DNA from: Liquorilactobacillus hordei DSM 19519
Lineage (GTDB): Bacteria > Bacillota > Bacilli > Lactobacillales > Lactobacillaceae
DNA: 64,000 bases
NCBI RefSeq assembly: GCF_019443985.1
Contig: NZ_CP049303.1
Span: 62,001 to 126,000, forward strand
Direction of reading: 5' to 3'
Within the stretch, counting starts at the first letter, position 1. The number at the start of each line of letters is the position of its first letter. Shown here in pieces: positions 15,241 to 51,783 of the stretch. The position numbers were made by a program, and so were the translations under genes. The notes beneath the pieces are model-generated. The model searched no databases and was not told where the DNA came from. It saw nothing but the letters and a program-made list of their open reading frames with translations.

Positions 15241-15390
15241 AAGTCGGGAAAATTTGAGGGCTAACTTGAAATCATGAATACAGCACCTGCTTTACTATAA
15301 GTAATTCAAAGTTAAACAAATCTTTTTGGCTTATGGAACAAATGTTTGTATGGGGTAAATAAAGAGGCTGAGTCAAAAGTAACTTTTGAC
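15241..15390 (+). repeat. Structured intergenic repeat, copy A (long form), split by ISL3 element
   Basis: Begins AAGTCGGGAAAATTTGAGGG, then CTAACTTGAAAT and the complementary-like AATTCAAAGTTAAAC, TGGCTTATGGAACA, and a terminal hairpin GAGGCTGAGTCAAAAG-TAACTTTTGAC. The right arm of the hairpin is completed after the insertion sequence at 16829-16844 (CTTTTGACCCAACCTC). Shares order and wording of blocks with copies at 18470, 20292, 33255, 44362 and 51658. Removing the insertion restores a hairpin suited to terminate guaB. Confidence 0.8.
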
Positions 15391-16828
15391 GGCTCTAAAA
15401 TATTGGGTGTTGATGAACTTCCATCAACACCCAATTTTCATGTACAATAAAAGGACAAGTTCCCAAATGCACCACCACATACCAACCAAAGTAAAAGTAA
15501 AGGCAAGTGAGAAAACATGTCCCAAGACTATTCTATCGAAAATATACTTCAAATCCAAGACCCAAATATTAAATGTATCAGTATTGACAATTCTGATCCC
15601 AAGAAACAAGTCATTCATGCCAAATTAACTTATTCGATAAAGCGCTGTCCACTTTGTGGCCAATCCCAAGTAGTCCGTTTTGGAACTAATTTGATCAACG
15701 TCAGGATGCCACCTATCAAAGAACGACCAGTTATCTTAAAACTGCTTAAACAACGTTATCTGTGCAAAAGAGGGCAACATACTTTTAGTGCTGAAACGTC
15801 GCTAGTTAAACCACACTGTCAAATCTCAGAAGATACCAAACAGATGATTATTCTACAGCTTACTAAAGATCGTAGTATTACTGATATTGCAGAGGAATTA
15901 AATGTTTCACCAGTGGCAGTTAATCGAGTACTTGATTCATTAGCGATTCAGACTAAGACCGCCTTGCTTACCTTACCAACTACGTTGTGTTTTGATGAAT
16001 TTCGCTCCACTGGTCATCAGATGAGTTTTATTGCCATTGATGGTGATACACATCGGCTAGTTTCTGTTTTACCTAATCGCCTTAATCGAAGTATCCAAAA
16101 TCACTTTGAAAGTAACTATTCCTTAGCTGAACGTAGGAAAGTTAAACAAGTAGTTATTGATTTCAATGCACAGTATCAATCCGTAATTCACATAATTTTT
16201 CCAGAAGCAAAAGTTATCGCCGATAACTTTCATCTAGTTCAAATGGGACTCCAAGCACTGAACCAGACACGCGTACAGTTAATGCATCGATTCACTCAAA
16301 ATTCACGAGAATATCGAGTTCTCAAACATCACTGGCGTTTATTTTTAAAAACTTATTCTGGCTTAAATCAACGTAAACCACAATGGTTTGCGCATTTAAA
16401 GAACTGGTTCACCCAAGAACAATTAGTCTGGCAAGGTCTTGAGTTAGATTCAACCTACCAACACACTTACTTCGTTGCGCATTCCCTAGTTGATGCCTTA
16501 AGAAAGCGTGATTATTTAAAGTTCATTAAAACACTAAATCGAGCTGACAAAGTCAGCCCACAGCTTGAAACTACAATAAAGACCTATCGCAAATATCTAC
16601 CATTAATTAAAAACATGATGGCAAGCAACTATTCAAATGGCCCACTAGAAGGTGTTAATCGCAAAATCAAACAAATTAAACGCACGGCATACGGCTATAG
16701 AAACTGGTCACATTTTTACACCCGGATTAGAATTGAATTTACGATTCGAATAAAAAAAAGAAAACCAATTCGAAAATGAATTGATTTTCTTTTAAAAATT
16801 TCCCATCAACAGCGGTTGACAAAGAGCC
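15391..16828 (+). mobile_element. Complete ISL3-family insertion sequence, 1438 bp
   Basis: Both ends are visible: left end GGCTCTAAAATATTGGGTG-TTGATG and right end, read inward, GGCTCTTTGTCAACCGCTG-TTGATG; they share GGCTCT and TGTTGATG at the same spacing (about 25-bp imperfect inverted repeats, 15391-15415 and 16804-16828). The element is flanked by a perfect 8-bp direct repeat CTTTTGAC (15383-15390 and 16829-16836), the target duplication size of the ISL3 family. It sits inside the terminator hairpin of repeat copy A. Confidence 0.95.
15517..16779 (+). CDS. tnp: ISL3-family transposase
   Basis: Intact 420-residue DDE transposase. Zinc-finger-like N-terminus CPLCGQ...(C-x2-C...C-x-H type, about residues 43-85), helix-turn-helix SITDIAEELNVSPVAVNRVL, and catalytic acidic residues in CFDEFRS, VIADNFHLVQ and GPLEGVNRKIKQIKRTAYGY, the standard ISL3 signature. 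No frameshift or internal stop, and perfect target duplications flank the element, which points to a recent and possibly still active insertion. The ATG at 15517 has a GTGAGAAAAC stretch upstream, a modest ribosome-binding site. Confidence 0.95.
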   Translation: MSQDYSIENILQIQDPNIKCISIDNSDPKKQVIHAKLTYSIKRCPLCGQSQVVRFGTNLINVRMPPIKERPVILKLLKQRYLCKRGQHTFSAETSLVKPHCQISEDTKQMIILQLTKDRSITDIAEELNVSPVAVNRVLDSLAIQTKTALLTLPTTLCFDEFRSTGHQMSFIAIDGDTHRLVSVLPNRLNRSIQNHFESNYSLAERRKVKQVVIDFNAQYQSVIHIIFPEAKVIADNFHLVQMGLQALNQTRVQLMHRFTQNSREYRVLKHHWRLFLKTYSGLNQRKPQWFAHLKNWFTQEQLVWQGLELDSTYQHTYFVAHSLVDALRKRDYLKFIKTLNRADKVSPQLETTIKTYRKYLPLIKNMMASNYSNGPLEGVNRKIKQIKRTAYGYRNWSHFYTRIRIEFTIRIKKRKPIRK

Positions 16829-16856
16829 CTTTTGACCCAACCTCTTCTTCAATATA

Positions 16857-18356
<1,500 letters not shown>

Positions 18357-18377
18357 TTAAATTTATTTTTATTTTCT

Positions 18378-18406
18378 AAAATACAAAATATTCTTAATAA
18401 AATCAA
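18378..18406 (-). promoter_or_regulatory. guaB promoter
   Basis: Reading on the minus strand: TTGATT (18406-18401), 17-base spacer, TATTTT (18383-18378), about 37 bases upstream of the guaB ATG. No purine riboswitch or PurR-type box was recognised in this leader. Confidence 0.6.
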
Positions 18407-18469
18407 GCATTCTCATGTATTTATTAGAATATTGTTGCTAAATAAACCTTCTTTAGCTTTTAACTTAGG

Positions 18470-18635
18470 AGTGAGTCATAAGTCAGGAAAGTTTGAGGAT
18501 TAACTCAAAATTACGAACACAGCACGTACTTTGCTGTAAATAATTCGAAATTAAACGAATTATTTTGGTTTACAGAACATGTTTATACGAAAAAATAGAG
18601 AAAGGGGCTCAAAATTCAACTTTTGCCCCTATCTC
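18470..18635 (+). repeat. Structured intergenic repeat, copy B (long form)
   Basis: GTGAGTCATAAGTCAGGAAA, TTTGAGGATTAACTCAAAATTACGAACA, GCACGTACTTTGCTGT, ATAATTCGAAATTAAACGAA, GTTTACAGAACATGTTTATACGA and a final hairpin GGGGCTCAAAATTC/AACTTTTGCCCC. The block order is as in the other copies. Lies antisense between guaB and the MHS transporter gene, both on the minus strand; its hairpin can serve as terminator for the transporter gene. Confidence 0.82.
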
Positions 18636-18728
18636 AAGCTTAAACTTATATTCATTAATTAATACTATCCGTCAGACTTCTTAGCACATGATTTTCTTTA
18701 CTAAAAAATAGTTCAGATAATTCACAGC

Positions 18729-20006
18729 CTACTTATCTAACTTCGAATGTTTCGATGTCTCAAGCATTCTGACATAAACAATCAAGCTAACAAAGACCGC
18801 TGCTGATACATAATAAAAGAACCAGCCTTCATGATTAATTGTTTTCAGCCATAAAGCAACATATTCAACTGTCCCACCAAAGATTGCTACTGTTAATCCA
18901 TAAGGCAATCCAACGCCTAAAGCTCTGATTTCTGTTGGGAAAAGTTCAGCCTTAACAACAGCATTAATTGACGTATATCCACTTACAATCATGAGACCTG
19001 CCAGCATTAATACAAAGACACTGAATGGACTATCAAATAGCTGTAACCCCTTAAAAATCGGTACTGTTAACAATGTACCTAGAATTCCAAACCAGTATAG
19101 CAGTGGCTTGCGGCCTATCTTATCTGAAAGATGTCCAAATACTGGTTGCATGATCATAAAGATTAAAAGTGCCAAGAAATTAATCTCAGTAGTTAATCTT
19201 GTTGGTAGCCCTAAACTATTAATCATATATTTTTGCATATAAGTAGTATATGTGTAAAATGCAATTGTTCCACCAAATGTCAATCCAATAACAGTCAATA
19301 CTTGACCTGGATATTTAGCCAATTGTTTTAAGGTCCCTTTCTTTTTACCACTCTTTGCTGCTGCCTTAAATTGATTGGTCTCATCCATTGACAATCTTAG
19401 ATATAACACAATAACTGCACCTAAGGCTCCTACAACAAATGGTATTCTCCATGCCCATGCCGTCAATTGAGTATCATTGAAGAAATACTGTAATAAAATC
19501 TGGACAATCAATGCAAGCAGCTGACCACTAATCAAAGTAACATATTGAAAAGACGCATAGTAACCTCTCCGATTTGAACTTGCCATTTCTGAAAGATATG
19601 TTGCAGAAATCCCATATTCACCGCCTAGAGAGATTCCTTGTACTAGCCGAACCAGTACTAAAATAATAGGTGAAAGAATTCCGATTGTCTTATACGTTGG
19701 AACAATTGCAATAATAAGTGAGCCACAGGCCATAATCACGACAGACAGTGTTAAGGCCGACCGTCGACCATGCTGGTCTGCAAATTTTCCCATTATGAAG
19801 CTCCCAAATGGTCTCATCAAGAAACCTACAGCAAAGACCGCAGCAGCACTCAATAATTCAACTGTTTGGTTATTGCTTGGAAAAAACGAATTTGCAAAAT
19901 AAATGGCAAAAGATGCATATATGTACCAATCAAACCATTCAATCATGTTGCCTAAAGAACCTTTGATTATATTACTTGCAATTTTCCTTTCTTTTTTCTT
20001 ATCCAA
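18729..20006 (-). CDS. MHS-family (metabolite:H+ symporter) MFS transporter
   Basis: Twelve-helix major facilitator of 425 residues. The N-terminal GSLGNMIEWFDWYIYASFA and the loop GKFADQHGRRSAL, plus GGEYGISATYLSEMA in helix 5, are typical of the metabolite:H+ symporter group (KgtP, ProP, ShiA relatives), which take up dicarboxylates, osmolytes or aromatic acids. The second-half loop GHLSDKIGRKPLL is also present. Substrate cannot be set from sequence; a dicarboxylate such as 2-oxoglutarate or citrate is a guess. Monocistronic, flanked on both sides by copies of the intergenic repeat. Confidence 0.82.
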   Translation of the reverse strand: MDKKKERKIASNIIKGSLGNMIEWFDWYIYASFAIYFANSFFPSNNQTVELLSAAAVFAVGFLMRPFGSFIMGKFADQHGRRSALTLSVVIMACGSLIIAIVPTYKTIGILSPIILVLVRLVQGISLGGEYGISATYLSEMASSNRRGYYASFQYVTLISGQLLALIVQILLQYFFNDTQLTAWAWRIPFVVGALGAVIVLYLRLSMDETNQFKAAAKSGKKKGTLKQLAKYPGQVLTVIGLTFGGTIAFYTYTTYMQKYMINSLGLPTRLTTEINFLALLIFMIMQPVFGHLSDKIGRKPLLYWFGILGTLLTVPIFKGLQLFDSPFSVFVLMLAGLMIVSGYTSINAVVKAELFPTEIRALGVGLPYGLTVAIFGGTVEYVALWLKTINHEGWFFYYVSAAVFVSLIVYVRMLETSKHSKLDK

Positions 20007-20291
20007 AGTTATCCCCCCTATGTCAGCTCTGAAAAGCTTGTAATGGGACTAATTATCGCACTTATCATCCCTCTTTGCATCTGCTCAAGCTCTAAGTTAG
20101 TTTTACCATGTTATGTCAACAAATGCCGATTTTACAAGGATTTGCATAAAAAAGAGAGTTTTTTGAATATCCCCTTCTTTTCTTTTAAAACCCAACTAGC
20201 TTTTTTACTATCTTTTTCAACGATAAACATCCCAAAAAAGTTATTATATTAAATTAAAATTAGAAAAGATTTAAACGAAGACTGTACAAAA

Positions 20292-20461
20292 GTGGATGAC
20301 ATAAGTCGGGAAAACTTACGTGCTAACTCAAAATTACGTATGTAGCTAGAGCCTTGCTATGAGTAATTCGAAGTTAGACGGAAAATCTTGACTCATGTAA
20401 ACATATTTATCCAGAATAAAAAGAAAGGTGGGATCAAAATTTAATTTTTTGCCCACCTCTA
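20292..20461 (+). repeat. Structured intergenic repeat, copy C (long form)
   Basis: GTGGATGACATAAGTCGGGA begins the copy; then GTGCTAACTCAAAATTACGT, GAGCCTTGCTATGAGTAATT, CGAAGTTAGACGGAAAATCT, TGACTCATG and the end hairpin AGAAAGGTGGGATCAAAATT/TTTTTTGCCCACCTCT. The most complete copy: ATAAGTC near the start pairs with GACTCAT near the end, so the whole unit can fold into one long arm. Between the MHS transporter and oleate hydratase genes. Nothing else was recognised in 20007-20291. Confidence 0.85.
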
Positions 20462-20488
20462 TAAGTTTTTTATCCGACTTTCAATTTT

Positions 20489-22261
20489 TTACAATAGTTT
20501 AGCTTCTTCTAATAGCTCTGCAAGCCATGTTTTTTTCAATTTTGAGATCCCAACTTTTTTCACCAATCCAGGAATTGGTAAAGAAATCTCATCTAATCGT
20601 TTTTTATCATTCAAATAATATACTGCTTTTAGTAATTCACGAATATCATAGATTGAATTGAAGACTTCTGGTACACCTCTTTCAACATCTAAAAGCATGT
20701 ACACTGCCTCCATTGCAGTTCTCACAGAATACTCTGTCGTGAAAACAGTATCTCTCGTTGGTGATTCAGCAAAATTACCAATAAAAGCCAAGTTTACTGA
20801 TCCTTCTGGTACAACATCCGGTCGGTCGCCTTTTTGTCTTGGCATAAAGTAAGAAGTAATGAATGGCATGTATACAGGTACCGTATTGATTGACTCTTGT
20901 GCAGCCAATTCAGCTATTTTAAATTCTGGAACTCCTAGATGGTATAAGAACTCTTCTGTAATCTCTTTTCCTGAACAATCGACAATCCTCTTATGAACAT
21001 AATTACCCTCAGTATCTGAATAAAGGCCATAAATCCAAACTGTAGTTTCATTTTCTGATTGCTCTTTAAAATGTGGCTGCCTATGAATCGCAAAACTCAT
21101 GAGCCAATTAGAATCTGTAATTGTGATTATTCCACCAGTATTCACTTTATTATCATGTAAATCACGTTTTGTTAATCGTTCAATGTACGGTTCAACAGCT
21201 GCATTACTAATAGTAGCTGTTGCAGAAACAAACCAGCTTTTTTCTGGTAAGTCTTGATAAAACACTTTAGGATTTCCAAAATCTGCTGATTGTTCAGCTA
21301 AGCTTTCCCATAATTTCCAACTTCCACCTAACTTTGTTGTAATGGGTGCAGCAGTATTGTGATCCCCATAAGTTGTACTTTCTGTAATTGAACCATTCGT
21401 TACGAAGACTAAATCATTTTCAGTAAGAGATATTTCATTTTTTTGTCCAGCAACTGTTAACAATAATTTTTTAGCAGTTTTCTTTCCATCTGTAAAGTCA
21501 ACTTGGATATTATCAACAGTCGTACTGTATTGTACATCCACATCATGTGACTTCAAATATGCAAGAATTGGTTTTACCATTGATTCATATTGATTGTACT
21601 TATTGAATTTAAGTGCCTTAAAATCTGGTAATCCGTCAATATGATGAATGAAACGCATCGTATATCTTCTCATTTCAACTGCTGAATGCCACTTTTCAAA
21701 AGCAAACATTGTGGCCCAATAAGTCCAAAAATTGCTTTCAAAAAATTTAGCTGAAAAGAAATCTTCAATTGTTTGTGTTCCTAACTTACTTTCAGGCGTC
21801 ATGACTAGTTTAATTAGTTCATTCGATGATTTATCCAAAGTATATTCACCATCATTTGGAACTCGATTACCACGATCATATATCAATCTGCAGTTCGAGG
21901 AATTAGGATCATCTTTGTCTAACCAATAATACTCGTCTAAGTACGATGCCCCCTCTATCTCAAGAGATGGGATCGAACGATACATATCCCATAAACATTC
22001 AAAATGATTTTCCATTTCACGACCGCCACGAGTAATAAAGCCAACATTCGGGCGCTTAGCTCCATCCAAGGATCCACCCGCAAGTGGCAATTCTTCTAGC
22101 AAATGAATATGCTCACCTTTCATGTGTCCATCACGAATTAAGAAAACAGCAGCCGCTAGCCCCGCTAAACCTGCTCCAACGATATAAGCCTGTTTCTGAT
22201 CAACATTAGCTGGTTTTCTTGGTCTGGCAAAAGCTTCATAATTCCCATTAGAATAATACAT
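20489..22261 (-). CDS. ohyA: Oleate hydratase (FAD-dependent, myosin-cross-reactive antigen family)
   Basis: Adds water to the cis-9 double bond of oleic and related acids, giving 10-hydroxystearate; linked to detoxification of free fatty acids. The FAD-binding motif [20 protein letters not shown], then [13 protein letters not shown] (catalytic Glu region) and [16 protein letters not shown] are diagnostic. The start is placed at ATG 22261, 8 bases after AAGGGA, giving 590 residues beginning [16 protein letters not shown], the normal N-terminus; a further in-frame ATG at 22270 lacks this spacing. Stand-alone gene. Confidence 0.93.
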
Positions 22262-22454
22262 TGTAATCATCCCTTCTTATGAACTGGTATACAAGTAAAG
22301 AGTACTCCTTAACTACAATAATTCAAAATAGAAAGACTTTCAGGTGTTTACCGTAATCCAAGAGATCAATGTGATGCAATTATTTATGTAAAAATACAAT
22401 TAGCTGCTTGCAAAGAAATCATTTACTAACATTCTTTATCTTAATCATATAGGC

Positions 22455-22496
22455 AAAAAAATACCCCCAAAGTTTTTACTTCAACTTTAGGAGTAC
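22455..22496 (-). terminator. Terminator of the 22.5-kb membrane protein gene
   Basis: On the minus strand TACTCCTAAAGTT pairs with AACTTTGGGGGTA (two mismatches) around a 9-base loop and is followed by TTTTTTT. It stands between the hypothetical gene at 22548 and oleate hydratase. Confidence 0.75.
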
Positions 22497-22547
22497 TCAT
22501 TACAGATATTTTTTAATTATCTAAATCTATAATTTTAATATTTTTAT

Positions 22548-23027
22548 TTATGATTTTTTTCTAAATCTTTGAAAAAGAATTACCATTAAAAAAACAGGTG
22601 CAAATAAAATAAAAAGGATGCTCATAAATAAACATTTTGCTATGCTATATACCCAATTTAGCGAGCTATCATAAGATTGGGTGTACGGCGTTGTGTACTC
22701 CCACGGATTAACATAAACCCCATTAGAAGACCACTTTTTATCCTTTTGTTGATGTGCCATTTCTTGATGATATGTGTCTAATGCTTTTCCACGATACGAT
22801 GAGTCATTCTCAGTAGAAATAAACCAACTATTATAATAAAGCCTAAGAAAAGGTAATACAGCTGTAGTTACAAAAAAGTACAGATCTAAGAAATTAAACT
22901 TGTAACGTAAAGTTGAAATATCCAAGTGTTCTAGATAAAACAAAACTATAAGAAGACATGCTCCACTAGTTATTGTATACCCTAGTAATCTAAAAACAAT
23001 TTTGATTATTATAATTACCTGTTTCAT
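22548..23027 (-). CDS. Hypothetical membrane protein, 159 residues
   Basis: Not assigned to a known family. Three hydrophobic segments are visible: about residues 5-30, 42-64 and 128-152, with a polar stretch of about 50 residues between the second and third that is rich in Tyr, Ser and Asn (HQEMAHQQKDKKW... SSNGVYVNPWEYTTPYTQSYD). It ends in a basic FQRFRKKS tail. A GGGG-containing site lies before the ATG. The layout could fit a small secretion or stress protein but no function can be given. It is followed by a good terminator and is transcribed alone. Confidence 0.65.
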   Translation of the reverse strand: MKQVIIIIKIVFRLLGYTITSGACLLIVLFYLEHLDISTLRYKFNFLDLYFFVTTAVLPFLRLYYNSWFISTENDSSYRGKALDTYHQEMAHQQKDKKWSSNGVYVNPWEYTTPYTQSYDSSLNWVYSIAKCLFMSILFILFAPVFLMVILFQRFRKKS

Positions 23028-23184
23028 AAATACTCACCCCTTGCCTAAGGAGCAGCTCACATTGCAGTAAAGGAATTCATCATCTTTATCTGATAAATCT
23101 CCAGCAATTGACAACAACCATAATCTCATCTTTTACAAATATTGAATAGCAACTACATTCAACATTATCCAATAACTAATTCGT

Positions 23185-24003: not shown

Positions 24004-24027
24004 TTGAATTCCCCCTGTACTCGTAAT

Positions 24028-28614: not shown

Positions 28615-28618
28615 CCAG

Positions 28619-33163: not shown

Positions 33164-33250
33164 ATGAGTGAAATTATTAACTTAATTGGTTCTTTAATCG
33201 GTTCCTTTGCGAGTGGCTTGATGACTAAAATACATGGTGAAGAAAAATAA
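33164..33250 (+). CDS. 28-residue amphipathic peptide, PSM/bacteriocin-like
   Basis: Small gene with AAAAGGGGG 7 bases before the ATG. The product begins MSEIINLIGSLIGSF and ends MTKIHGEEK. Hydrophobic residues at i, i+3/i+4 spacing (I, I, L, I, L, I, F, L, M, I) with Gly/Ser between would give an amphipathic or membrane-active helix, with charges confined to the ends. It resembles phenol-soluble modulins, leaderless bacteriocins or small membrane toxins in size and composition, but no family is recognised. Followed directly by copy D of the intergenic repeat, whose hairpin would terminate it. Confidence 0.5.
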   Translation: MSEIINLIGSLIGSFASGLMTKIHGEEK

Positions 33251-33254
33251 AGGG

Positions 33255-33384
33255 GAGTGTGATATAAGTCGAGAAAATTTGAGTACCAACTCGAAATTAG
33301 ACGGAGAATTTTGACTTATGGAACACGTTTATACGAAATAATTAGCGAGGTTGAGTTAAAATTTAACTTTTGGCACAGCCCCAG
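33255..33384 (+). repeat. Structured intergenic repeat, copy D (short form)
   Basis: GTGTGATATAAGTCGAGAAA, ATTTGAGTACCAACTCGAAA, TTAGACGGAGAATTTTGACT, TATGGAACACGTTTATACGA and a final hairpin GAGGTTGAGTTAAAATTTAA/CTTTTGGCACAGCCCC (imperfect). Lacks the roughly 30-base middle block of the long copies. Lies just after the amphipathic peptide gene, same strand. Confidence 0.82.
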
Positions 33385-33430
33385 CCACATTTTTCTTAAC
33401 CATCCTATTTATGGTGTCCTTCAATGAAAC

Positions 33431-42907: not shown

Positions 42908-42970
42908 AAGACCTCTTGCTGCGATATGGTTATATTAACTAGTAACTATTCGTTTAAGCAAGGAGGTCTT
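42908..42970 (+). promoter_or_regulatory. Hairpin enclosing the ribosome-binding site of the oxidoreductase gene
   Basis: AAGACCTCTTGCT (42908-42920) pairs with AGCAAGGAGGTCTT (42957-42970) with one bulged G, giving a 13-bp stem around a 36-base loop. The right arm holds the whole AGGAGG site of the gene starting at 42974 and runs into TTTTT. It can act as terminator for dapE and as translational lock for the next gene. Confidence 0.7.
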
Positions 42971-42973
42971 TTT

Positions 42974-44311
42974 ATGTCTACAAATTCTTATGACTATGAT
43001 GTTTTATATCTCGGGAGTGGTCATGGTACATTTGATGGTGCAATTCCACTAGCTGCACAAGGGATTAATGTTGCAGTTGTTGAAAGCGGTCTGGTAGGTG
43101 GCACTTGCCCTAACAGGGGGTGTAATGCAAAAATTACACTTGAAGCCCCTGTTGCTCTTGCAAATCAGGTAAGTGAAATGCATGGACTGGTTAACCCATT
43201 ATTAGATTTGAATTGGCAAAACACAGTTGCGCACAAGCACGAGGTAATTGACGCTTTACCTGAATTTATCACTAATTTGATGCAAGACAATGGCATTACC
43301 TTGATTAAAGGACGCGGACATTTCGTTGATTCCCATACTATTATCGTAAATGGCAAGAAAATCTCAGCTGAGAAATTCGTTATTGCAACAGGGATGCACC
43401 CTCACCAGTTAGATTTACCTGGACGCCAAATTGTGAACGACAGCAGTGCTTTTATGAATTTAAAGAAACTGCCTAAACGAATCACTATTATCGGTGCAGG
43501 CTATATTGGAATGGAATTTGCAACTATTGCATCCGGGTTTGGATCCCAAGTCACGGTAATGATGCGCGGCGATAAGGCATTAAGGAAATTTCATCAACCT
43601 TTTGTAGAAAAAGTAATTAATAAGTTAAGCCTAGCGGGTGTAACTGTTATCAAAAATGCAACTATTGAATCATTTTCAGATGATTTTGGAAGTAAAACTG
43701 TGCATTACAATAAAGACCAAAAAGTTGAAGCTGATTGGATTTTGGATGCAACTGGTCGTACACCCAACACAACAAGTCTTGGTCTAGAAGCAATTGGCGT
43801 AGACTACGATGCAGATGGAATTATTGTAAATGATTACTTGCAAACATCTGTTTCTCATATCTATGCAAGTGGTGACGTAATAAAGAAAACTCAACCTAAA
43901 CTTACACCAACTGCTATCTTTGAATCACTTTATCTCATGAAAACTTTTACTGGTGAAACAGATCAACCCATTGTCTATCCAGCAATTCCTTCAACTGTTT
44001 TTACCACACCTCGAATTGCAAAAGTTGGTATTACACCTGAAGAAGCAAAACAGAAAGCTGATTTAACTATTTCAACAAATAATGTTTTAGATAATTGGTA
44101 TCGTAATGTTGAAAAAGAAACTTTTGGAGAAAATAAATTGATCTACACTCAATCACATCAACTCGTGGGTGCAACAGAAATAAGTAATCATGCCGAAGAT
44201 GTTATTAATGCCTTGTTGCCGGCAATTGAGCTTAAGTTAACACCTGAGCAAATTGAAAGAATTATCCCTATTTTTCCAACAATTGGATCAGCTGCCTGGG
44301 AAAATCTGTAA
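42974..44311 (+). CDS. FAD/NAD(P)-dependent disulfide-reductase-like oxidoreductase
   Basis: 445 residues with the class I pyridine nucleotide-disulfide reductase fold: FAD motif VLYLGSGHGTFDGA, redox pair in GGTCPNRGCNAK (C-x4-C), second nucleotide-binding motif ITIIGAGYIGMEFA, and the FAD-contact YASGDVIKK. In glutathione reductase or dihydrolipoamide dehydrogenase the C-terminus carries an active-site HPTxxE; here it reads FPTIGSA, so the catalytic His and Glu are missing and the true substrate is probably not a standard disulfide. Start ATG 42974 with AGGAGG upstream; an earlier in-frame start at 42902 lies in the hairpin and is unlikely. Confidence 0.82.
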   Translation: MSTNSYDYDVLYLGSGHGTFDGAIPLAAQGINVAVVESGLVGGTCPNRGCNAKITLEAPVALANQVSEMHGLVNPLLDLNWQNTVAHKHEVIDALPEFITNLMQDNGITLIKGRGHFVDSHTIIVNGKKISAEKFVIATGMHPHQLDLPGRQIVNDSSAFMNLKKLPKRITIIGAGYIGMEFATIASGFGSQVTVMMRGDKALRKFHQPFVEKVINKLSLAGVTVIKNATIESFSDDFGSKTVHYNKDQKVEADWILDATGRTPNTTSLGLEAIGVDYDADGIIVNDYLQTSVSHIYASGDVIKKTQPKLTPTAIFESLYLMKTFTGETDQPIVYPAIPSTVFTTPRIAKVGITPEEAKQKADLTISTNNVLDNWYRNVEKETFGENKLIYTQSHQLVGATEISNHAEDVINALLPAIELKLTPEQIERIIPIFPTIGSAAWENL

Positions 44312-44361
44312 TATATCTGCTAAGTTTTGCTGATTCGTAAAACTAGAATATACAAAGAAAT

Positions 44362-44480
44362 AAGGGAGTATAAATTTGAATACTAATTCGAAATTATACG
44401 TAGAATTAGTACTTATAAAACACTTTTATACGCAACAAATAGAGAGGTTGAGCCAAACTTTTGGCCCAACCTCTTATTTT
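44362..44480 (+). repeat. Structured intergenic repeat, copy E (short form)
   Basis: AAGGGAGTATAAATTTGAAT, ACTAATTCGAAATTATACGT, AGAATTAGTACTTATAAAAC, ACTTTTATACGCAACAAATA and a final hairpin GAGAGGTTGAGCCAAAC/TTTTGGCCCAACCTCT. The first block (AAGTCGGGA) is lost. Sense orientation behind the oxidoreductase gene and able to terminate it. Confidence 0.8.
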
Positions 44481-44574
44481 ATTATCTAGAAAAAAATTGA
44501 TCCTCAAATTATATCTTTACTGACTTCTAAATTAAAGGTATAATAATGAAATAAATCATATAGGAGGAGTGTAT

Positions 44575-44934
44575 ATGGACAACAGCCAAAAACTAACATT
44601 CGATTGGAAATATGCACTCCATGCCAATTTAATCCTTGCATTTTTTGTTTTTGTACTGAACTTTTCAACAAATAATACAGCACTCTTATTATCATTGATT
44701 CCGATAGTTTTCCTACTCTTCCTACGTCACTTATTCGAGAAAAAACATGATACCTATAGATTAAATAATCGGATTTTCTATAAGCCTATCTCCATTACTT
44801 GCCTCTTTTTCTTCATCATTGGTGAATTAATACTCGCCTTTAACTATCAGACTTCCCAGAATTTGGTGTTGTTATTTTCGTATGCCTTTTCCTGCGCTTT
44901 TATTAGGGATGGATTCTCCAAGAAAAAGTTGTAA
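44575..44934 (+). CDS. Hypothetical membrane protein, 119 residues
   Basis: Not recognised as a named family. Four hydrophobic stretches at about residues 14-32, 35-52, 72-90 and 93-110, with charged turns (HLFEKKHDTYRLNNR) and a basic C-terminus (GFSKKKL). ATG 44575 has AGGAGG 7 bases upstream. Single gene between repeat copy E and the convergent pyruvyl transferase gene. Confidence 0.65.
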   Translation: MDNSQKLTFDWKYALHANLILAFFVFVLNFSTNNTALLLSLIPIVFLLFLRHLFEKKHDTYRLNNRIFYKPISITCLFFFIIGELILAFNYQTSQNLVLLFSYAFSCAFIRDGFSKKKL

Positions 44935-44941
44935 AACATTA

Positions 44942-45967
44942 CTAAAAACCATATTTATTTGAATTTAATTGAATTATATGTCGTAACTGATTAAAGTCAT
45001 CTTTAATATCATACTTATGCGTTTCAACTCTCTTTAGCTTGTTGATTTGACTTTGAATCCGCTCAAAATCATCCTCATCAGTGTAGCTCACCCAATTAAT
45101 GTGCTCCAGCCAATCAAAATAGGCATGTTTTCCTTTACCATAACTATTTCCAAATAACAGGCAAGGGGTTCCAGTCAACACAGAAAATACCATTGCATGC
45201 CATCTATCAGTCACAATAATCTCTTGCTTTGCAAAAAGCTCTAACTCATCTTTAAATAATTTTTCTCGATTAACTGGAGTAATTCGTTCAACCGTATCAA
45301 GAACTGTATCTGTTTCAGCAACACTTTTATTCTTGCTTAGCAACTTCTTTATCGCATCAACAGTCTCTTGCTTAACTACTTTCTCACTATCATGACGCAA
45401 TACAATTAATGTGCTTTCTTTTTTTACATTGTGCTCTACAGGTTTCATGTACAGAACCATATCTGGTGTAAATAAGACTTTATTTTCAAAAGTTGTCTGC
45501 ATCCGATGATAACTCTGCGCATCTCTAGCAACTAAAAAAAGATGTGAATTTTTTGCGTATGCTTCTTGGCTTAACTTTTCCTCTGCCTTACCGTGTTCAT
45601 TATCTTCAAAATGTATTGATTGTGGAAATGAAATTGTTAAATTATCAACAAATGTAGAAAACACTTTGCGTCGAGCTTCTTCATGATCAGTGTACAAACT
45701 GCCCATATTGCCTCCACCAACAAACGAAACAATATCTCCTGATTTAATAACTCTTTTAACAATCTCAATTGCCTCATCATTATCATCTTCCAGAATCTCA
45801 ATAAATTGATATTCTGGAAACTCATGTTCAATATATTTTTTTTGTGCTAAAGATACTGCTTGATCCCCCAAGTTAGTATATGTAGGCACACCAAACGAAT
45901 AAAACTTGGGTAGATTATTGACAGGCAAATCATGAACTGCTTTATATTTAATATAGAATTCAACCAT
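44942..45967 (-). CDS. Polysaccharide pyruvyl transferase family protein
   Basis: Adds ketal pyruvate to sugars of exopolysaccharide or cell-wall polymer. About 341 residues with family features: FGVPTYTNLGDQAVSLAQKKYI at the start (N-x-G-D-q-A), GGGNMGSLYTDHEEARRKV, ISFPQSIHFE, ARDAQSYHRM, TPDMVLYMKP and VTDRWHAMVFSVLTGTPCLLFGNSYGKG (in parts). ATG 45967, 5 bases after TAGGAG, is preferred; an open frame to 46021 overlaps the upstream gene. Co-transcribed with the sugar porter 34 bases upstream. Confidence 0.85.
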   Translation of the reverse strand: MVEFYIKYKAVHDLPVNNLPKFYSFGVPTYTNLGDQAVSLAQKKYIEHEFPEYQFIEILEDDNDEAIEIVKRVIKSGDIVSFVGGGNMGSLYTDHEEARRKVFSTFVDNLTISFPQSIHFEDNEHGKAEEKLSQEAYAKNSHLFLVARDAQSYHRMQTTFENKVLFTPDMVLYMKPVEHNVKKESTLIVLRHDSEKVVKQETVDAIKKLLSKNKSVAETDTVLDTVERITPVNREKLFKDELELFAKQEIIVTDRWHAMVFSVLTGTPCLLFGNSYGKGKHAYFDWLEHINWVSYTDEDDFERIQSQINKLKRVETHKYDIKDDFNQLRHIIQLNSNKYGF

Positions 45968-46001
45968 ATTATCTCCTACTTTCTTTGTTATCGTAACTAT
46001 C

Positions 46002-47369
46002 TTATTTTTTTCCATCTTCATATGCTTCTCGTAACTTGTTATGCTTTAATACAAACGTTGAAAAGATGATGCTTACACCGTTTGAAACTGCAAATACAAA
46101 GAAAACGACCGCAATACCTACTACAGATATGAGAATTGGAAAAATTAAACTAATCACAAAATTAGACAGCCAGACAGTTGCCGTTGAAACAGACATCAAG
46201 CGAGCCTTAATCTTATTTGGAAAGATTTCAGTTAAAATTAGCCACGTAACCGGACTAACTATTCCCTGATGACATGCAAGAAATAGTGCCAAGAACACCA
46301 GTACTAAAGCATTAGTAATCAACTGTGAAAACAAGGCTATTTTCATTGTCATTCCAAGCAAAAATAAGAATAAAACATTGCCTATCAAACCGATTGCAAG
46401 CATCTTACTATGATTGTATTGATCGATCATTCGCGTTCCTACAATACTTGAGATAAGTGAAACAAAACCTATTAAAATATTTGCATACAAGGAGCCCCCC
46501 TGACCCATTCCAACTTTTTCCATCAATATTGTTCCATAGTACATTACTGCATTAACACCTGATATTTGTTGAATCAATGCAATTAGCATTCCACAAATTA
46601 ATAAGTACCGTAGACTTTTATTCTTGAGAATAGTTTTCCAAGAAACTCTACTTTCATCATCTTCCCCAACATCCTCTTTTAACTTAGTATAGGCTAACTT
46701 ATTAAATCCTAGTTTCTTAAAAATTCCTTTAGCCTTCTTGTATTGTTTCTCAGCTAATACCCAGATTGGGCTATTAGCAATTTTGAATGACCCAATCCAG
46801 AGAACTATTGCAGGGATACTTGCTGAAAAAATCATTACCCGCCAAATTGGAGCCCAATTGCCCCAAACATTACCCAAAACTGCATTAACAATAAAAGCTA
46901 CCAGCTGTCCTAAAACAATTGCAACCGCGTTTTTATTAACATTAACCGTTCTAACAGCTTTAGGAGAAATCTCTGCCAGATACATTGGAGAAATACCTGA
47001 TGCTGCACCAACAGCGATACCTAGAACAAATCTAAAGAATGCCATTAGCCAAAAATTCGGTGCAATCGCACATAAAATCGTGGAGATTGTAAATATAATA
47101 GCAATAAGCCTTAATGTACGCCGTCTACCAATATGATCTGCCACCTGCCCACAACCTAATGCCCCAATACAAGCTCCCAAAATTAATGAACTCGAAACAA
47201 TCCCTTGTAAGGTTGGACTTAAATTAAGTTCAGTAGTTTTACTCATAAATGCTAAAGCGCCATTAATAACTCCAGTATCATATCCAAACAAGAAACCGCC
47301 TAGCGAGATAACATAGACACAATATTTTAAAAAACTCGTCTGACTTTTATCCTGACTCCTACTATCCAT
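46002..47369 (-). CDS. Sugar porter (SP) family MFS transporter
   Basis: Twelve-helix sugar:H+ symporter of 455 residues. Signatures: GGFLFGYDTGVINGAL in helix 1, GQVADHIGRRRTLRL, RFVLGIAVGAASGISPMYLAEISP (PESPR-type region in the variant NSPIWVLAEKQYKKA), QQISGVNAVMYYGT and VTWLILTEIFPNKIKARLMS. Substrate likely a pentose, hexose or polyol. ATG 47369 with GAGAGG 9 bases upstream is preferred over 47411. First gene of an operon with the pyruvyl transferase; the functional link is unclear. Confidence 0.87.
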   Translation of the reverse strand: MDSRSQDKSQTSFLKYCVYVISLGGFLFGYDTGVINGALAFMSKTTELNLSPTLQGIVSSSLILGACIGALGCGQVADHIGRRRTLRLIAIIFTISTILCAIAPNFWLMAFFRFVLGIAVGAASGISPMYLAEISPKAVRTVNVNKNAVAIVLGQLVAFIVNAVLGNVWGNWAPIWRVMIFSASIPAIVLWIGSFKIANSPIWVLAEKQYKKAKGIFKKLGFNKLAYTKLKEDVGEDDESRVSWKTILKNKSLRYLLICGMLIALIQQISGVNAVMYYGTILMEKVGMGQGGSLYANILIGFVSLISSIVGTRMIDQYNHSKMLAIGLIGNVLFLFLLGMTMKIALFSQLITNALVLVFLALFLACHQGIVSPVTWLILTEIFPNKIKARLMSVSTATVWLSNFVISLIFPILISVVGIAVVFFVFAVSNGVSIIFSTFVLKHNKLREAYEDGKK

Positions 47370-47493
47370 CAATAATCGCCTCTCTACTCTCTCTAAATTT
47401 AACCTATACAATATATGATGAAGCCTACAACTTTAATTCTAGGACAAATAATTTTCTTTGTACATAATTATGGAATCTATTAAATTTATATAA

Positions 47494-47530
47494 AAAATAA
47501 GTCTAATATTTTTCACATTAGACTTATTTT
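47494..47530. terminator. Rho-independent terminator
   Basis: AAAATAAGTCTAA (47494-47506) pairs perfectly with TTAGACTTATTTT (47518-47530) around 11 bases. Located downstream of the catechol dioxygenase-like gene (minus strand), with T-runs both ways. Confidence 0.88.
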
Positions 47531-47567
47531 CATTCATCTTTATTAACCTCTTATGAACACTTTAAAA

Positions 47568-48446
47568 TTACACTTTCTCTACCTTAATCTGGATCTTTAT
47601 TTTATTTGGATCCATCAACCATAGATTGCCTGCCGCATCTTTGTCAAAAACATATCCGATTACACGCAAGTGTTCTTCAATTCGTGCAATCTCTGTTTCA
47701 TCAGGTACAAAGAACGTATAGTAATCAAGTCCAAGATCATTTTCTTCCATCCCAGGAATATTACGTCCATTCCAAATATTTGAGCCGATATGATGATGGT
47801 ATCCACCTGTTGCGAAGAATTTAGCTTGTCGTCCAAAATCCATTTTCAACGATAAGCCCAAAACATCAGTATAAAAATCCTGCGTTTTATCCAAATCAGC
47901 AACTGTTAAATGAACATGCCCTACAATTGTTCCGCTCGGAAAACCTTGCCACTTCTGATCAGCTGCACCGATTACCCCTTCAGCATCCATCTCAATTGTA
48001 ATTCCACGAATTTCCCCGTCTGCTCGAATATCCCAGACATCGCGTGGTTTATCATGATAAACTTCAATTCCATTACCTTCAGGATCTGTTAAGTAAAGAG
48101 CTTCACTGTATCCGTGATCACTAGCCCCAATAATTGGTGCTTTATTAGTTATATATTTGATAAGTGCATTCCCTAAGTCCTTGCGCGTTGGTAAATGAAA
48201 TGCTACATGATATAATCCTGTTTTGCGCGTCAATGGTAACGGATTATCAATCTCTTTAAGTATCAACAAAGGTGTCTTATCATCATTTGCCCCTAGAATA
48301 CTTTTTTGCTGATCTTTTGATAATACATTCAAGCCAATAATACTTGTATAAAATTCCGTTTGTTTTTCAAGATTTGCAACTTTCAGCGCAATTGTTCCTG
48401 TATGTGTTTTCTCTGATAACTGAAATTTTGGAATAATAGCTGTCAT
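47568..48446 (-). CDS. catE: VOC-family dioxygenase (catechol-2,3-dioxygenase-like, CatE)
   Basis: Two tandem vicinal-oxygen-chelate modules in 292 residues (about 14-120 and 170-280). Metal ligands are visible: His 16-17 region THTGTIALKV..., then His in GHVHLTVADLDKTQDFYTDVLG, His in YHHHIGSNIWNG, and Glu in the strand before the end; LYLTDPEGNGIEVYHD is the C-end of module 1. Resembles Bacillus CatE/YfiE, an extradiol dioxygenase for catechols or hydroquinones; in lactobacilli the natural substrate is unknown. AGGAGG lies before the ATG. Single gene. Confidence 0.82.
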   Translation of the reverse strand: MTAIIPKFQLSEKTHTGTIALKVANLEKQTEFYTSIIGLNVLSKDQQKSILGANDDKTPLLILKEIDNPLPLTRKTGLYHVAFHLPTRKDLGNALIKYITNKAPIIGASDHGYSEALYLTDPEGNGIEVYHDKPRDVWDIRADGEIRGITIEMDAEGVIGAADQKWQGFPSGTIVGHVHLTVADLDKTQDFYTDVLGLSLKMDFGRQAKFFATGGYHHHIGSNIWNGRNIPGMEENDLGLDYYTFFVPDETEIARIEEHLRVIGYVFDKDAAGNLWLMDPNKIKIQIKVEKV

Positions 48447-48587
48447 AATTACTTCCTCCTAAGTTTTACTCTAAATAATAAGATTCTTAAATTACTAAGT
48501 CATCTTCATTATACATACTTATTAAAAGTAAGCAATATTTTATTCTTTTATTTTTTCAGTCAAAAGTAAGTTTCTCCATTATAAATA

Positions 48588-49130
48588 TTAGTCAAATAAC
48601 GGTAATCTCTCTAAATATAAAATATCTTTACGTTCACTAGCTTCACCCTCAGCCAAAATAGCAGCTTGTAAGATTACTTGTCCACCTGCGTCTTCAACTA
48701 ACTTCTTTGCAGTAATCATTGAGCCGCCACTACTGATTACGTCATCCAAAAGTAAGATTTTCTTTCCTGCAATTATTTGTGCATCCTCACCGTCTAATAC
48801 CAGAACCTGATCTTGACTAGAAGTGATAGCATTAACTGATAAAACACGCGGATTTTTCATATAATCCTTAACTTTTTTTCTGAGTACGATATATCGCTTT
48901 TTTCCCATACAATAACTTAACTCCTGTGCTAATGGAACTCCCTTGCTTTCCATTGTTACTATATAATCAAAGGGCTCTGTAATCTGTTCACTTAGCTTTT
49001 GAGCAGCATAGTGCGTCAATTCTGCATCTCCTAACAATACAAAAGATGCAATAGTAAGAGTTGGATTTAATCTAATTAATGGTAATTTACGTGTGAGTTC
49101 TCCTAATTTTAATTCATAATATTCTGACAT
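48588..49130 (-). CDS. Purine-type phosphoribosyltransferase (adenine/xanthine PRTase-like)
   Basis: 180-residue type I PRTase. The PRPP-binding motif ILLLDDVISSGGSM near residue 125 and the base-binding hood region YIVTMESKGVPLAQEL (as in adenine PRTase) are clear; KKRYIVLRKKVKDYM is the typical flexible loop. Transfers a base to PRPP to form a nucleotide. It follows an NCS2 permease gene by 3 bases, a pairing that points to purine salvage (adenine, xanthine or guanine). Confidence 0.8.
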   Translation of the reverse strand: MSEYYELKLGELTRKLPLIRLNPTLTIASFVLLGDAELTHYAAQKLSEQITEPFDYIVTMESKGVPLAQELSYCMGKKRYIVLRKKVKDYMKNPRVLSVNAITSSQDQVLVLDGEDAQIIAGKKILLLDDVISSGGSMITAKKLVEDAGGQVILQAAILAEGEASERKDILYLERLPLFD

Positions 49131-49133
49131 CTG

Positions 49134-50213
49134 CTATATCCCCAATCCAATCAATGGCAACAAGAATTTTAAGAATGCTCCAGTTGTTATCCCGACAAAT
49201 GGATCAAAAATCGCGGTTACAACTAACGTTATTCCAGCTACAAGACTATTTGCACCACTCAATGCTGCCGCTGCATTTTCAGGGAAAATAACAACCGCAC
49301 CTAAAATAAATAAAAAACCTGCAATTGATGAACTTGGAACAAATTTTCCAATTTTAGGTAACCAACCAGCAAATAAGATAACTGCCATAATAAGCATCAT
49401 CATTATTCCTGCAATTACAGGTTCAGGTGCACTTGCTGTTGCAGAAATGATTGTCTCTACCGGCGCTCCTCCCAAAAGACTGGTCCCCATATCCGCAAGT
49501 GATTGTGTAATTGTTAATAAATTCAAGTCTACTGGGTTTGGTTTAATTCCGGTCATCTGACCAGTTATCAGGCCATACGAAAGATTCGCTCCGATATTAA
49601 GACAGGCTAGTCCAAGTGCTCCACGAACAATTCGTACATTAACGGTTGGTTTCAAAAATCTAAATCGACGTTCTGTCACACTAGTTGGTAATTCTTTACG
49701 ATAATGTTCTACAAAAACTGCAAATACACTAGAAACGACTACTGATAAGACAATTGTCCATACTAAGTCTTTTGAAATTATGTATGTAATAGCTGCAATC
49801 AGAATCGAGATCCATCCAGTCTTACTTTTACTTCCTTTATTCATATCGACAGCTATCTTAGCAAGCATTAACCCTACACCTGCCATCATCCCATCAATGA
49901 TATTGTTACCTAATACTGAAACAATCTTAGGTAGTAACCCTGTGAAACCAATAATAGCCATAATTATTGATCCACCAAAAATTATAGATGTTCGTTCGCG
50001 CAAGTCTTTCCCCAAATTTCCGGTCAGAGCTAATGATTCAGCTTGAAATGAGAGTGGTGCAACCGAACCAAAGACTCCATTAACTGCCGAAGCAAAAACA
50101 AATGAAAAAGTCGTTGGAAAAACAGCAAATCCTAATCCCATTGCCATAATTCCCTGTGGAATACCATTCAGTACTACTCCAATGGCAGCCATTAAATCTG
50201 ATAACAAGTGCAT
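49134..50213 (-). CDS. NCS2-family (xanthine/uracil permease-like) transporter
   Basis: Membrane protein of 359 residues with about 12 hydrophobic segments. MAAIGVVLNGIPQGIMAMGLGFAVFPT and APLSFQAESLALTGNL at the N-terminus and the helix-8-like GMMAGVGLMLAKIAVD and GGAPVETIISATASAPEPV fit nucleobase:cation symporter-2 proteins (shown in parts). ATG 50213 with GGAGGAAGC upstream is preferred over the open frame reaching 50306. Operon with the PRTase; together they would import and trap a purine base. A hairpin-like ATTATATCC...GGATAATAT lies in the leader (about 50230-50258) but no known riboswitch was recognised. Confidence 0.8.
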   Translation of the reverse strand: MHLLSDLMAAIGVVLNGIPQGIMAMGLGFAVFPTTFSFVFASAVNGVFGSVAPLSFQAESLALTGNLGKDLRERTSIIFGGSIIMAIIGFTGLLPKIVSVLGNNIIDGMMAGVGLMLAKIAVDMNKGSKSKTGWISILIAAITYIISKDLVWTIVLSVVVSSVFAVFVEHYRKELPTSVTERRFRFLKPTVNVRIVRGALGLACLNIGANLSYGLITGQMTGIKPNPVDLNLLTITQSLADMGTSLLGGAPVETIISATASAPEPVIAGIMMMLIMAVILFAGWLPKIGKFVPSSSIAGFLFILGAVVIFPENAAAALSGANSLVAGITLVVTAIFDPFVGITTGAFLKFLLPLIGLGI

Positions 50214-50433
50214 AAGCTTCCTCCAATAAACATATATTATCCACACATAGGCCGGATATAATTCGTATAACATGAAAATCTTATAATAAAAAACATCTTT
50301 TTTCAATATATTTTCAAAAAAACAAAAACTTTAAGACTAAAATCAGTAAAAATAAAATAAAGCTTTCTTTTAGTGAGTAAAAACTATATTATTATGTTTG
50401 TGTCATTATTTTTTTGGAGGGAGCGTTTCATCT

Positions 50434-51624
50434 GTGAGAAGTTTTAATTTTAGGGCAACTGTCCTTATTTTAATTGCCTTTGTTTTAGGATGTAGTGAAT
50501 TCATTGTTGTTGGTATCTTGAATGATCTCGCACATCAATTCGATAAATCAGTAACCTCCGTTGGTTACCTAGTAACAATTTTTGCTTTTGTCTATGCCTT
50601 CTCTACTCCCATATTGACTGCTTTAATTGGAAAATTCCGTTACTTTTGGTCGTTATTTTGGTTTATGATTATCTTTATTTTAAGTAATCTAATGAGTCTT
50701 TTCGCACCAAGTTACGATTGGTTACTTGCTTCACGAATTATAACTGGAACTGTTTCAGGTATTATTATTTCACTTGCCCTAACTTTTGCTAATCTAATTG
50801 CACCGCTCGAAAAACGTGCATGGTTGGTTTCGTGGGTCTTTTCAGGATTCAGTATTGCTTCAGTTTTTGGTGTTCCATTGAGCACCTGGATTAGTACTAC
50901 TTTCAATTGGCGAATTTCTTTTGCCGTAATTACGGTTATCAGTATCATTACATTAATCCTATTTACGTTGAGCATGCCTAAATCACCAATTGCCAAGAGT
51001 AGCAAATTGCTTGCACAAATCAGTCTTGTCCGTGATTCACGTGTCTGGTTAGGATCTTTACTTGTGATGCTAAGTGCAAGTGGTATTTATGTATTCTATA
51101 CCTATTTGCGTTCCATTCTAACAACTGAATTAGGGTTCTCAACTAGCAGTCTAAGTATCCTATTGTTTGTCTTTGGACTGATGTCAATCATTAGTAATCA
51201 GGCAAGCGGGTATCTTGCAGAAAATAACGGACTTTTGCGGATGCCATTCGTTTATTTCTCTCAGGTAGTTTTGTTTATTTTGATGATATTTTTGCCTCAT
51301 GTAAAATGGCTGGGACTCCTATTAATTCTTATTTTGGGAATCACAATGTATCTATTGAATGCTCCTGTTCAAGTCCATTTTTTTAGTGTTGCAGAAAAAG
51401 AATATCCTCAGTCACTAGTTCTCTCGTCCTCCCTAAACTCCATCTTCTTTAACTTCGGGATTTCACTTGGTTCCGCAACTGGTGGAATTTTGGTTGCAAA
51501 TCATGGATTAATTGCAATTGGCCCTGGAGCAAGTGGTTTTGCATTTTTAGCAATCATAACTTCAATTCTTCTAAACAAAGAAATTGCCCGGCATAATAAG
51601 CTAAGAAACGAGGTCAAAAGTTAA
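50434..51624 (+). CDS. MFS transporter, DHA1 type
   Basis: Twelve-helix efflux or sugar-export type MFS protein of 396 residues (FVLGCSEFIVVGILNDLAHQF at helix 1, VGYLVTIFAFVYAFSTPILTAL, SRIITGTVSGIIISLALTFA, GVPLSTWISTTFNWRISF, the A-G-x-P-x-G-type helix 5). Similar to AraJ/YdhP/PbuE-type exporters; as it is divergent from a purine permease-PRTase operon, a purine base or nucleoside exporter (PbuE-like) is possible. GTG 50434 is preferred, 10 bases after GGAGGGAG. Repeat copy F follows directly. Confidence 0.8.
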   Translation: MRSFNFRATVLILIAFVLGCSEFIVVGILNDLAHQFDKSVTSVGYLVTIFAFVYAFSTPILTALIGKFRYFWSLFWFMIIFILSNLMSLFAPSYDWLLASRIITGTVSGIIISLALTFANLIAPLEKRAWLVSWVFSGFSIASVFGVPLSTWISTTFNWRISFAVITVISIITLILFTLSMPKSPIAKSSKLLAQISLVRDSRVWLGSLLVMLSASGIYVFYTYLRSILTTELGFSTSSLSILLFVFGLMSIISNQASGYLAENNGLLRMPFVYFSQVVLFILMIFLPHVKWLGLLLILILGITMYLLNAPVQVHFFSVAEKEYPQSLVLSSSLNSIFFNFGISLGSATGGILVANHGLIAIGPGASGFAFLAIITSILLNKEIARHNKLRNEVKS

Positions 51625-51657
51625 AATTTACTGACCTGTTTCTTATAAAACATTCAA

Positions 51658-51783
51658 CGTGTGACATAGGTCGGGAAAATTTGAGTACTAATTCGAAATT
51701 AGACAGAGAATTTTGAATATATATATATATCCGAAATAAATAAAGCGAGTGGGTCAAAAGTTAACTTTTGATTCACTCGTTTT
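51658..51783 (+). repeat. Structured intergenic repeat, copy F (short form)
   Basis: CGTGTGACATAGGTCGGGAA, AATTTGAGTACTAATTCGAA, ATTAGACAGAGAATTTTGAA, an ATATATATAT run, CCGAAATAAATAAAGCGAGT and a final hairpin CGAGTGGGTCAAAAGTTAAC/TTTTGATTCACTCG followed by TTTTTTG. Acts as a probable terminator of the MFS gene. Confidence 0.83.

Follow-up and report, generated by a model that had tools for sequence, protein, structure and literature searches.

What is the short structured sequence that recurs between genes of Liquorilactobacillus hordei DSM 19519, and how did it come to lie there? The question is raised by a 64-kb window (contig NZ_CP049303.1, positions 62,001 to 126,000 of the forward strand; C3:62001-126000 of the 2.44-Mb genome G000), in which a sequence-only reading had described six places sharing the same sequence blocks in the same order. 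Recognisable parts of the repeat occur in order at all six places, at some of them only partly. The repeat is real, and its earlier interpretation (a MITE-like element, a dispersed terminator module or a structured RNA; MITE, miniature inverted-repeat transposable element) is partly supported. It is probably a non-autonomous mobile palindromic element that, in Liquorilactobacillus, consists of an arm, a tail and a terminator-like hairpin and inserts by replacing a stem-loop. For insertion by this route there is good support from one genome pair.

With borders defined from young copies in related genomes, the unit comprises a near-palindromic arm of ~110 nt, a tail of ~20 nt that resembles GTTTATCCGGAATAAAAGAG, and the terminator-like hairpin, 160-170 nt in total. 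Its 5′-end is GAGAGTGTGACATAAG. Loss of an inner hairpin gives rise to size classes, which are long (~128 bases), short (~88 bases) and shortest (~75 bases).

Stem-loop replacement at filled and empty sites

Genomes G006 and G007, taken as the two L. mali genomes, provide seven clean pairs of filled and empty sites. At all seven, 24-48 nt of a pre-existing stem-loop are gone and the element stands in their place, by eye with no obvious target duplication; four of the seven targets are terminator-like. The empty site of L256 carries a hairpin, AGGGACTAGG...CCTGGTCCCT, between ATAG and CTAT, and in the filled site the element is enclosed by the retained ATAG and CTAT. A terminator-like hairpin was lost at L258 and at L250. 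At L262 an older copy, oriented the same way, lost its terminator-like end to the new one, and the result is an arm-arm-terminator arrangement. At L260 a hairpin with an 8-bp stem (ATGTTCAA-TTGAACAT) was lost from an open reading frame (ORF) of 101 amino acids (aa) in G006, which is now interrupted (pair L260/L275). Weak stem-loops were lost at L272 and, less clearly, at L264.

The 50-nt windows at the breakpoints are rich in hairpins (combined p = 4.6e-6), with five of the seven individually below 0.05: L258 (p = 0.0053), L256, L262 and L250 (p = 0.0086 each) and L260 (p = 0.043). A test on six of the seven missing segments, which were chosen by the author, agrees with the breakpoint-window test: these segments fold.

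Two comparisons were made. In the first, 17 flank pieces of G006 were cut and 12 were searched, of which eight were found in G007 and six resolved; the flank alignment of L170 stopped short, and the L270 site is occupied in both genomes. In the second, 19 matches in G006 were reduced to 18 rows by skipping one close to the end of a stretch; the rows comprise five without a collinear match, five shared with G007 and eight labelled empty. Six of these eight are clean, including one new pair (L258); judged by eye, L360:8972 occurs in both genomes, and L365:1521 is a fragment. The six G007 matches comprise five that are shared and one without a match.

A small, non-coding, high-copy repeat could also be an ordinary MITE of a DDE-type insertion sequence (IS), with terminal inverted repeats and a target duplication. 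The element's ends, GAGAGTGTGA... and ...CAGCCCC, are however not inverted repeats, and the seven pairs, judged by eye, show replacement instead of plain insertion with duplication. Such an origin is extremely unlikely. The MITE-like character suggested in the sequence-only reading thus stands as regards mobility and falls as regards the expected ends and duplication.

The terminal hairpin as part of the unit

At L260 and L272, and less clearly at L264, the target was not terminator-like and the terminal hairpin arrived with the element. L260 and L272 thus gained the element's own hairpin, which therefore moves with the unit in this lineage. The same terminal hairpin is found in different surroundings at L256, L258, L260 and in the second copy of L248, and among three copies in G008 it is identical in two and differs by one base in the third. 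In the own genome, a hairpin scoring at least 20 lies within 45 nt past the arm in 36 of 52 unique copies, compared with 88 of 850 background windows. In G013, arm-arm-terminator arrays are found, with a unit of about 133-136 nt.

An alternative is that the arm merely lies beside pre-existing terminators, so that the terminator always belongs to the host. Downstream hairpins do differ between loci in other genera, and one copy in G003 (L168, G003:C14:132986-133112) is followed, unlike other copies, by an unrelated strong hairpin (GGAGTCCGCAGCC...). Against this, the empty sites of L260 and L272 lack such a terminator while their filled counterparts carry the typical one, and the recurrence of one hairpin in the four settings listed above speaks in the same direction. 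We regard host ownership of every terminator as unlikely. The proposal of a dispersed terminator module was correct for L. mali-like genomes, where the terminator hairpin travels with the unit.

Conserved structure of the arm

Each unit had been predicted to fold into one long arm. Measured against dinucleotide shuffles, the six arms in window order have z-scores of 0.24, -1.84, -4.16, -3.33, -1.90 and 0.05; only the copies at 20292 and 33255 fold clearly better than shuffled sequences, and those at 44362 and 51658 are decayed, so that the prediction does not apply to all six. As fold energy of single copies is weak, the case for a structure rests on covariation. In alignment A3 (24 arms, 23 distinct), 87.2% of cells are paired under a structure of 35 pairs, and 38 cells are doubly changed, compared with 11.1 after shuffling. 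In the order-wide alignment A4 (30 arms, locus L307 excluded), 87% of cells are paired against 57% in shuffled alignments; 28 of these arms were found by R2, a covariance model that already contains the structure, and this favours pairing. A4 has 362 doubly changed cells against 115 and a covariation of 0.738 against 0.191, a value reached in 0 of 500 shuffles, and structures slid along the alignment give at most 0.152. The compensatory substitutions that the sequence-only reading had called for are therefore present. The unpaired motifs AGTGTGA, GAGCAYTAA, TTARGCGGA and GAACACGTTT are largely constant. Consensus folding of a first alignment of 23 copies returned no pairs, probably because short forms introduced gaps into the helices; that alignment was superseded by A3 and A4, which are mostly of the long form.

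The pairs do not discriminate between selection on RNA and on DNA, as the asymmetry between G-U and A-C cells is weak or absent: 146 against 113 in a set of 107 sequences (35 against 32 types, p = 0.81) and 51 against 25 in A4. Of the suggestion of a structured RNA, conservation of the structure is upheld by covariation, but no observation identifies RNA as the functional form.

Searches of Rfam matched no family at its gathering score in the window, with one sub-cut-off match in 15100-20600. Among 20 order-wide loci, 12 rows were returned at E<=1, and the cut-off was reached solely by an L21 leader outside the element. Sub-cut-off matches of the arms L286, L299 and L303 to animal microRNA hairpins are read as chance similarities arising from a long hairpin.

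Copy number, hosts and genomic placement

A sequence profile of 128 positions (R1) gave 132 rows in the own genome at E<=0.01. Subtraction of seven opposite-strand matches at the same place and two from duplicated contig ends leaves ~123 places. With single copies as queries, blastn returned 64 and 35 matches; together with the R1 rows, these numbers place the repeat far beyond chance. The density of ~1 per 10 kb suggested earlier is close to that of the window (seven per 64 kb), but genome-wide it is about 1 per 18 kb. The two ends of contig G000:C3 repeat the same sequence (662 and 2210235; 5672 and 2215261), and the chromosome is therefore probably circular, with a size of about 2.21 Mb.

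R1 matched 16 of 60 relatives, the own genome counted; these include 11 of 13 other genomes of the genus, of which G005 has just two matches. R2, which encodes the 35 pairs and was used to score nine candidates per genome, matched at least 46 of 395 Lactobacillales genomes (own genome counted, E<=1e-4), so that the covariance-model search proposed earlier did find further copies. Of the positive genomes, 26 belong to the same family and 20 to four other families, several of the latter with no more than two matches, close to the threshold. Across 398 Bacilli genomes sampled class-wide, again with nine candidates scored per genome, the own genome was the sole match at E<=1e-5. Among 28 named genomes 19 were matched, including UCMA15818 (114 matches; G012 is taken as this strain), L. 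mali KCTC 3596 (86), L. mali ATCC 27304 (62), Secundilactobacillus paracollinoides (57) and Levilactobacillus koreensis (27). No match was found, within this named set, in L. sicerae, Lentilactobacillus kosonis, two Weissella, Oenococcus oeni, one of two L. brevis and three non-Lactobacillales genomes. Two Liquorilactobacillus plasmids carry one copy each. Plasmid searches with two copies from other genera as queries gave no match, nor did a search of phage records with two queries. A full-text literature search, judged by titles and abstract openings, returned no description of the repeat in Lactobacillaceae.

None of the 52 unique own-genome copies lies inside an ORF of at least 80 aa, the ORFs being picked mechanically, without annotation, and partial overlaps not being counted. 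An exclusively intergenic location, as had been claimed, thus fits the own-genome copies examined, but not G006 with its insertion in the 101-aa ORF. Thirty-eight own-genome copies have no IS next to them. Of these, 37 border one or more gene 3′-ends: 14 lie in the same sense between co-directional genes, 15 between convergent genes and eight in the opposite sense between co-directional genes, and one is at a divergent position. The distance from the upstream co-directional stop codon to the start of the element has a median of 29 nt (n = 29, quartiles 11-98). That nearly all copies adjoin a gene 3′-end would follow from terminators being the principal targets.

The same placement could point to a functional RNA of the 3′ untranslated region (UTR), such as an mRNA-stabilising or processed hairpin with a terminator, which would be under selection and would rarely spread. 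The short distance to the stop codon, the terminator-like hairpin at the end, the strong covariation of the stems around constant loop motifs and the excess of G-U cells in A4 would all suit such an RNA. It is at odds with the presence of very similar young copies within one genome, the insertion into the ORF at L260/L275, the eight of 38 copies that are antisense to both co-directional flanking genes, the near-equal G-U and A-C counts of the 107-sequence set and the decay of old copies. We consider a selected 3′-UTR RNA rather unlikely.

An insertion sequence dedicated to the repeat

An IS3-family IS with an orfA (HTH_Tnp_1, PF01527) and an orfB (rve, PF00665) is inserted in many copies of the repeat (example copy L121:1831-3303; G000:C3:1308330-1309802). 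In the own genome, 18 rows at E<=1e-20 correspond to 16 distinct copies after merging the rows of a duplicated contig end and those of a copy that was split. All 16 are preceded by the 5′-end of the element and so lie inside the repeat, at one base. Fifteen continue with AAGTCG on the other side; L347 is deleted on its right side. Of the 15 copies with both junctions, 14 are flanked on either side by a 3-bp duplication, AAG, and L337 has AAA/AAG. The helix-turn-helix orfA with the rve-type orfB, the 3-bp duplication and the one target site within a palindrome are the features of palindrome-targeting members of the IS3 family. Pairwise identity of the IS is 99.3% among the 14 complete copies, while the adjacent 150 nt are 85% identical (61-97%), and the two are uncorrelated (r = 0.10). 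A young IS has therefore gone into many old copies that differ from one another, at a single base; movement of the IS and the repeat as one unit was rejected on the same figures.

A dedicated IS, together with palindromic, intergenic, high-copy and tandemly clustered repeats, recalls the repetitive extragenic palindromes (REP) and bacterial interspersed mosaic elements (BIME) mobilised by a REP-associated tyrosine transposase (RAYT; Y1, IS200-like). REP palindromes are described as 20-40 nt long, with a GTAG/CGTC tag (PMC3733652). The arm of the present element has ~110 nt instead, and at the foot of its hairpin the consensus is AGAGTGTGA with no such tag. The Y1 transposase domain PF01797 has no match (E<=1e-5) in five genomes with 19 to 59 element matches (G002, G006, G009, G010 and G013), and it is present in G011, one of two non-carriers. 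Occurrence of PF01797 and of the element is thus uncorrelated, and mobilisation by a RAYT/Y1 enzyme was rejected. A REP/BIME-like system is very unlikely.

Proposed mode of spread

The reading that we consider probable, a mobile unit that replaces stem-loops, would work as follows. In the one genome pair that shows it, the element takes the site of a resident stem-loop, which is often terminator-like and at a gene 3′-end; the target hairpin (24-48 nt) is lost, and the arm and the element's own hairpin are left there. The gene thereby regains a terminator-like hairpin, which would explain why insertion is tolerated. Replacement of 3′-end stem-loops would account for the positions of the copies, and a hit on the terminator of an earlier copy would account for arm-arm-terminator arrays. 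What a recombinase or transposase acting in trans recognises may be the arm in its folded state, with loops held constant and stems that covary, probably as single-stranded DNA during replication. Transcribed copies would form a long hairpin and a terminator in the 3′ UTR.

Several observations weigh against this account. All seven pairs come from one genome pair, all are filled in G006, and their junctions and anchors were set by eye. Taken alone, the targets of L272 and L264 are weak hairpins (p = 0.18 and 0.36 in the breakpoint windows). If only the core of the hairpin were exchanged, both ends should retain some target stem, and L256 is the one pair that shows this clearly. Complementarity of the flanks over copies gave p = 0.28 in a first test (44 of 72 rows, after exclusion of tandem, weak-hairpin, N and duplicate rows); after the right border had been redefined it gave 0.006 (anchored), 0.025-0.19 (local) and, for 15 young copies, 0.057 and 0.21. 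For 32 of 47 loci in other genera it gave 0.35; with such mixed values, retention of the target stem as a general rule is not established. Only two of the six window arms clearly outfold their shuffles, and the A4 arms were largely chosen by a model of the structure itself. Copies in other genera are often followed by differing hairpins, and the terminator may not belong to the unit in every case. No mobilising enzyme was found, and the Y1 transposase is missing from five of 12 carriers in the genus.

A broader version, which is tentative, is that the order-wide family consists of structure-coded DNA hairpins spread by hairpin exchange, in which an enzyme would read the folded arm, take out a resident stem-loop and put in the element's own. 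If true, hairpin exchange would be a form of transposition without terminal repeats or target duplication that gives genes new terminators. No description of this transposition mechanism was found in the literature search.

Copies in the 64-kb window

The nhmmer profile finds seven copies in the window rather than six, of which six are on the plus strand; rows genome-wide are on both strands. Copy 1 had been taken as a full unit. Its arm (15241..15341, long form, model positions 14-114) begins at element position 14, without the first block, at AAGTCGGG, which is the exact point of IS insertion in other copies. Just before it, at 15226-15241, CAGTACAAATACA resembles the right end of the IS3-family IS, GGCAGTACA, and is perhaps the scar of a lost IS copy. 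Its terminator hairpin is split by an ISL3-family IS (15391..16828; transposase ORF 15517-16779, PF01610, E = 4.8e-49) into a 5′ part (15364..15390) and a 3′ part (16829..16844), and an 8-bp duplication, CTTTTGAC, flanks this IS at 15383-15390 and 16829-16836.

Copies 2 and 3 are also of the long form, with arms at 18468..18594 (nhmmer 1e-27) and 20290..20418 (2.7e-30) followed by terminator-like hairpins at 18599..18635 and 20426..20458 (inverted repeat I4); copy 3 is the best-folding of the window (z -4.16). Copy 4 is a short form without the inner hairpin (arm 33253..33340, nhmmer 4.6e-19; terminator-like hairpin 33347..33380). Its flanks are complementary (33234..33403): 33234-33248 pairs with 33389-33403 over 15 nt at 93%, possibly the remains of a target stem. 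Immediately 5′ of it, a small ORF of 28 aa (33164-33250; MSEIINLIGSLIGSFASGLMTKIHGEEK) is possibly a gene for a short amphipathic peptide.

Decayed short forms are found as copy 5 (arm 44360..44440, hairpin 44442..44474), whose site holds related decayed sequence in G012, G006 and G007, and as copy 6 (arm 51656..51738, hairpin 51745..51779), which has an orthologous copy in UCMA15818 (L001). The arms of both were located by nhmmer, and both hairpins are terminator-like. Copy 7 (62134..62252, minus strand), absent from the sequence-only reading, is decayed and is matched at 8.2e-8 by the seed profile and 1e-4 by the arm profile; it is not among the R1 rows of the own-genome search. Stand-alone terminator-like hairpins without an arm, with a core similar to that of the element's terminal hairpin, lie at 10337-10377 and 51595-51640.

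Comparison with known systems

The analysis ties together, in low-GC Firmicutes, long palindromes at terminators, spread with no obvious transposase and tolerated insertion. With the 35-pair covariance model any genome can be searched for the family, and the mechanism of transposition can be tested directly in closely related food bacteria, in which some sites are filled and others empty. The dedicated IS offers a case, again in a food bacterium, of a target chosen to the single base.

Group IIC introns insert next to terminator hairpins, preferring intrinsic terminators. The present element has a like preference for terminators, but it is far too short for an intron and removes the hairpin. 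RUP, ERIC and NEMIS are MITEs of the type with TA target sites and terminal inverted repeats. They are named, with BOX, among the miniature elements in PMC3733652 and PMC2267715; the present element is likewise a small dispersed structured repeat, but one without terminal inverted repeats. IS1397, ISKpn1 and ISPsy8 are described as targeting the palindromes of REP or PU (palindromic unit; BIME), IS1397 and ISKpn1 inserting specifically into REP (PMC1525189). These, too, are intergenic palindromes specifically targeted by an IS3-family IS, from which the present element differs in its size, its sequence, its hairpin-replacing insertion and its lack of correlation with RAYT.

The closest likeness is to Efa-1 of E. 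faecalis, described as 163 long, with 65 members (18 full-length), intergenic, and with an adjacent pair of stem-loops (PMC2267715), and to EFAR of Enterococci, which is counted among the bacterial MITEs (PMC3733652). The present element, of ~160-170 bp, is similarly multicopy and intergenic, and it also has two adjacent independent stem-loops, the arm and the terminal hairpin (36 of 52 copies). EFAR is reported to replace unrelated stem-loops of 24-37 bp and to keep part of the target stem (De Gregorio et al. 2009, FEMS Microbiol Lett 292:7-12). Deletion of most of an unrelated target stem-loop is seen here as well, with gaps of 24-48 nt, two of the seven targets being weak hairpins; the target stem kept at both ends is clear in L256, with mixed statistics overall. 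The present element differs in that its stems covary order-wide around constant loops, its arms occur in tandem and it has a dedicated IS. Compared by description, not by sequence, it would on the best reading work like EFAR/Efa-1.

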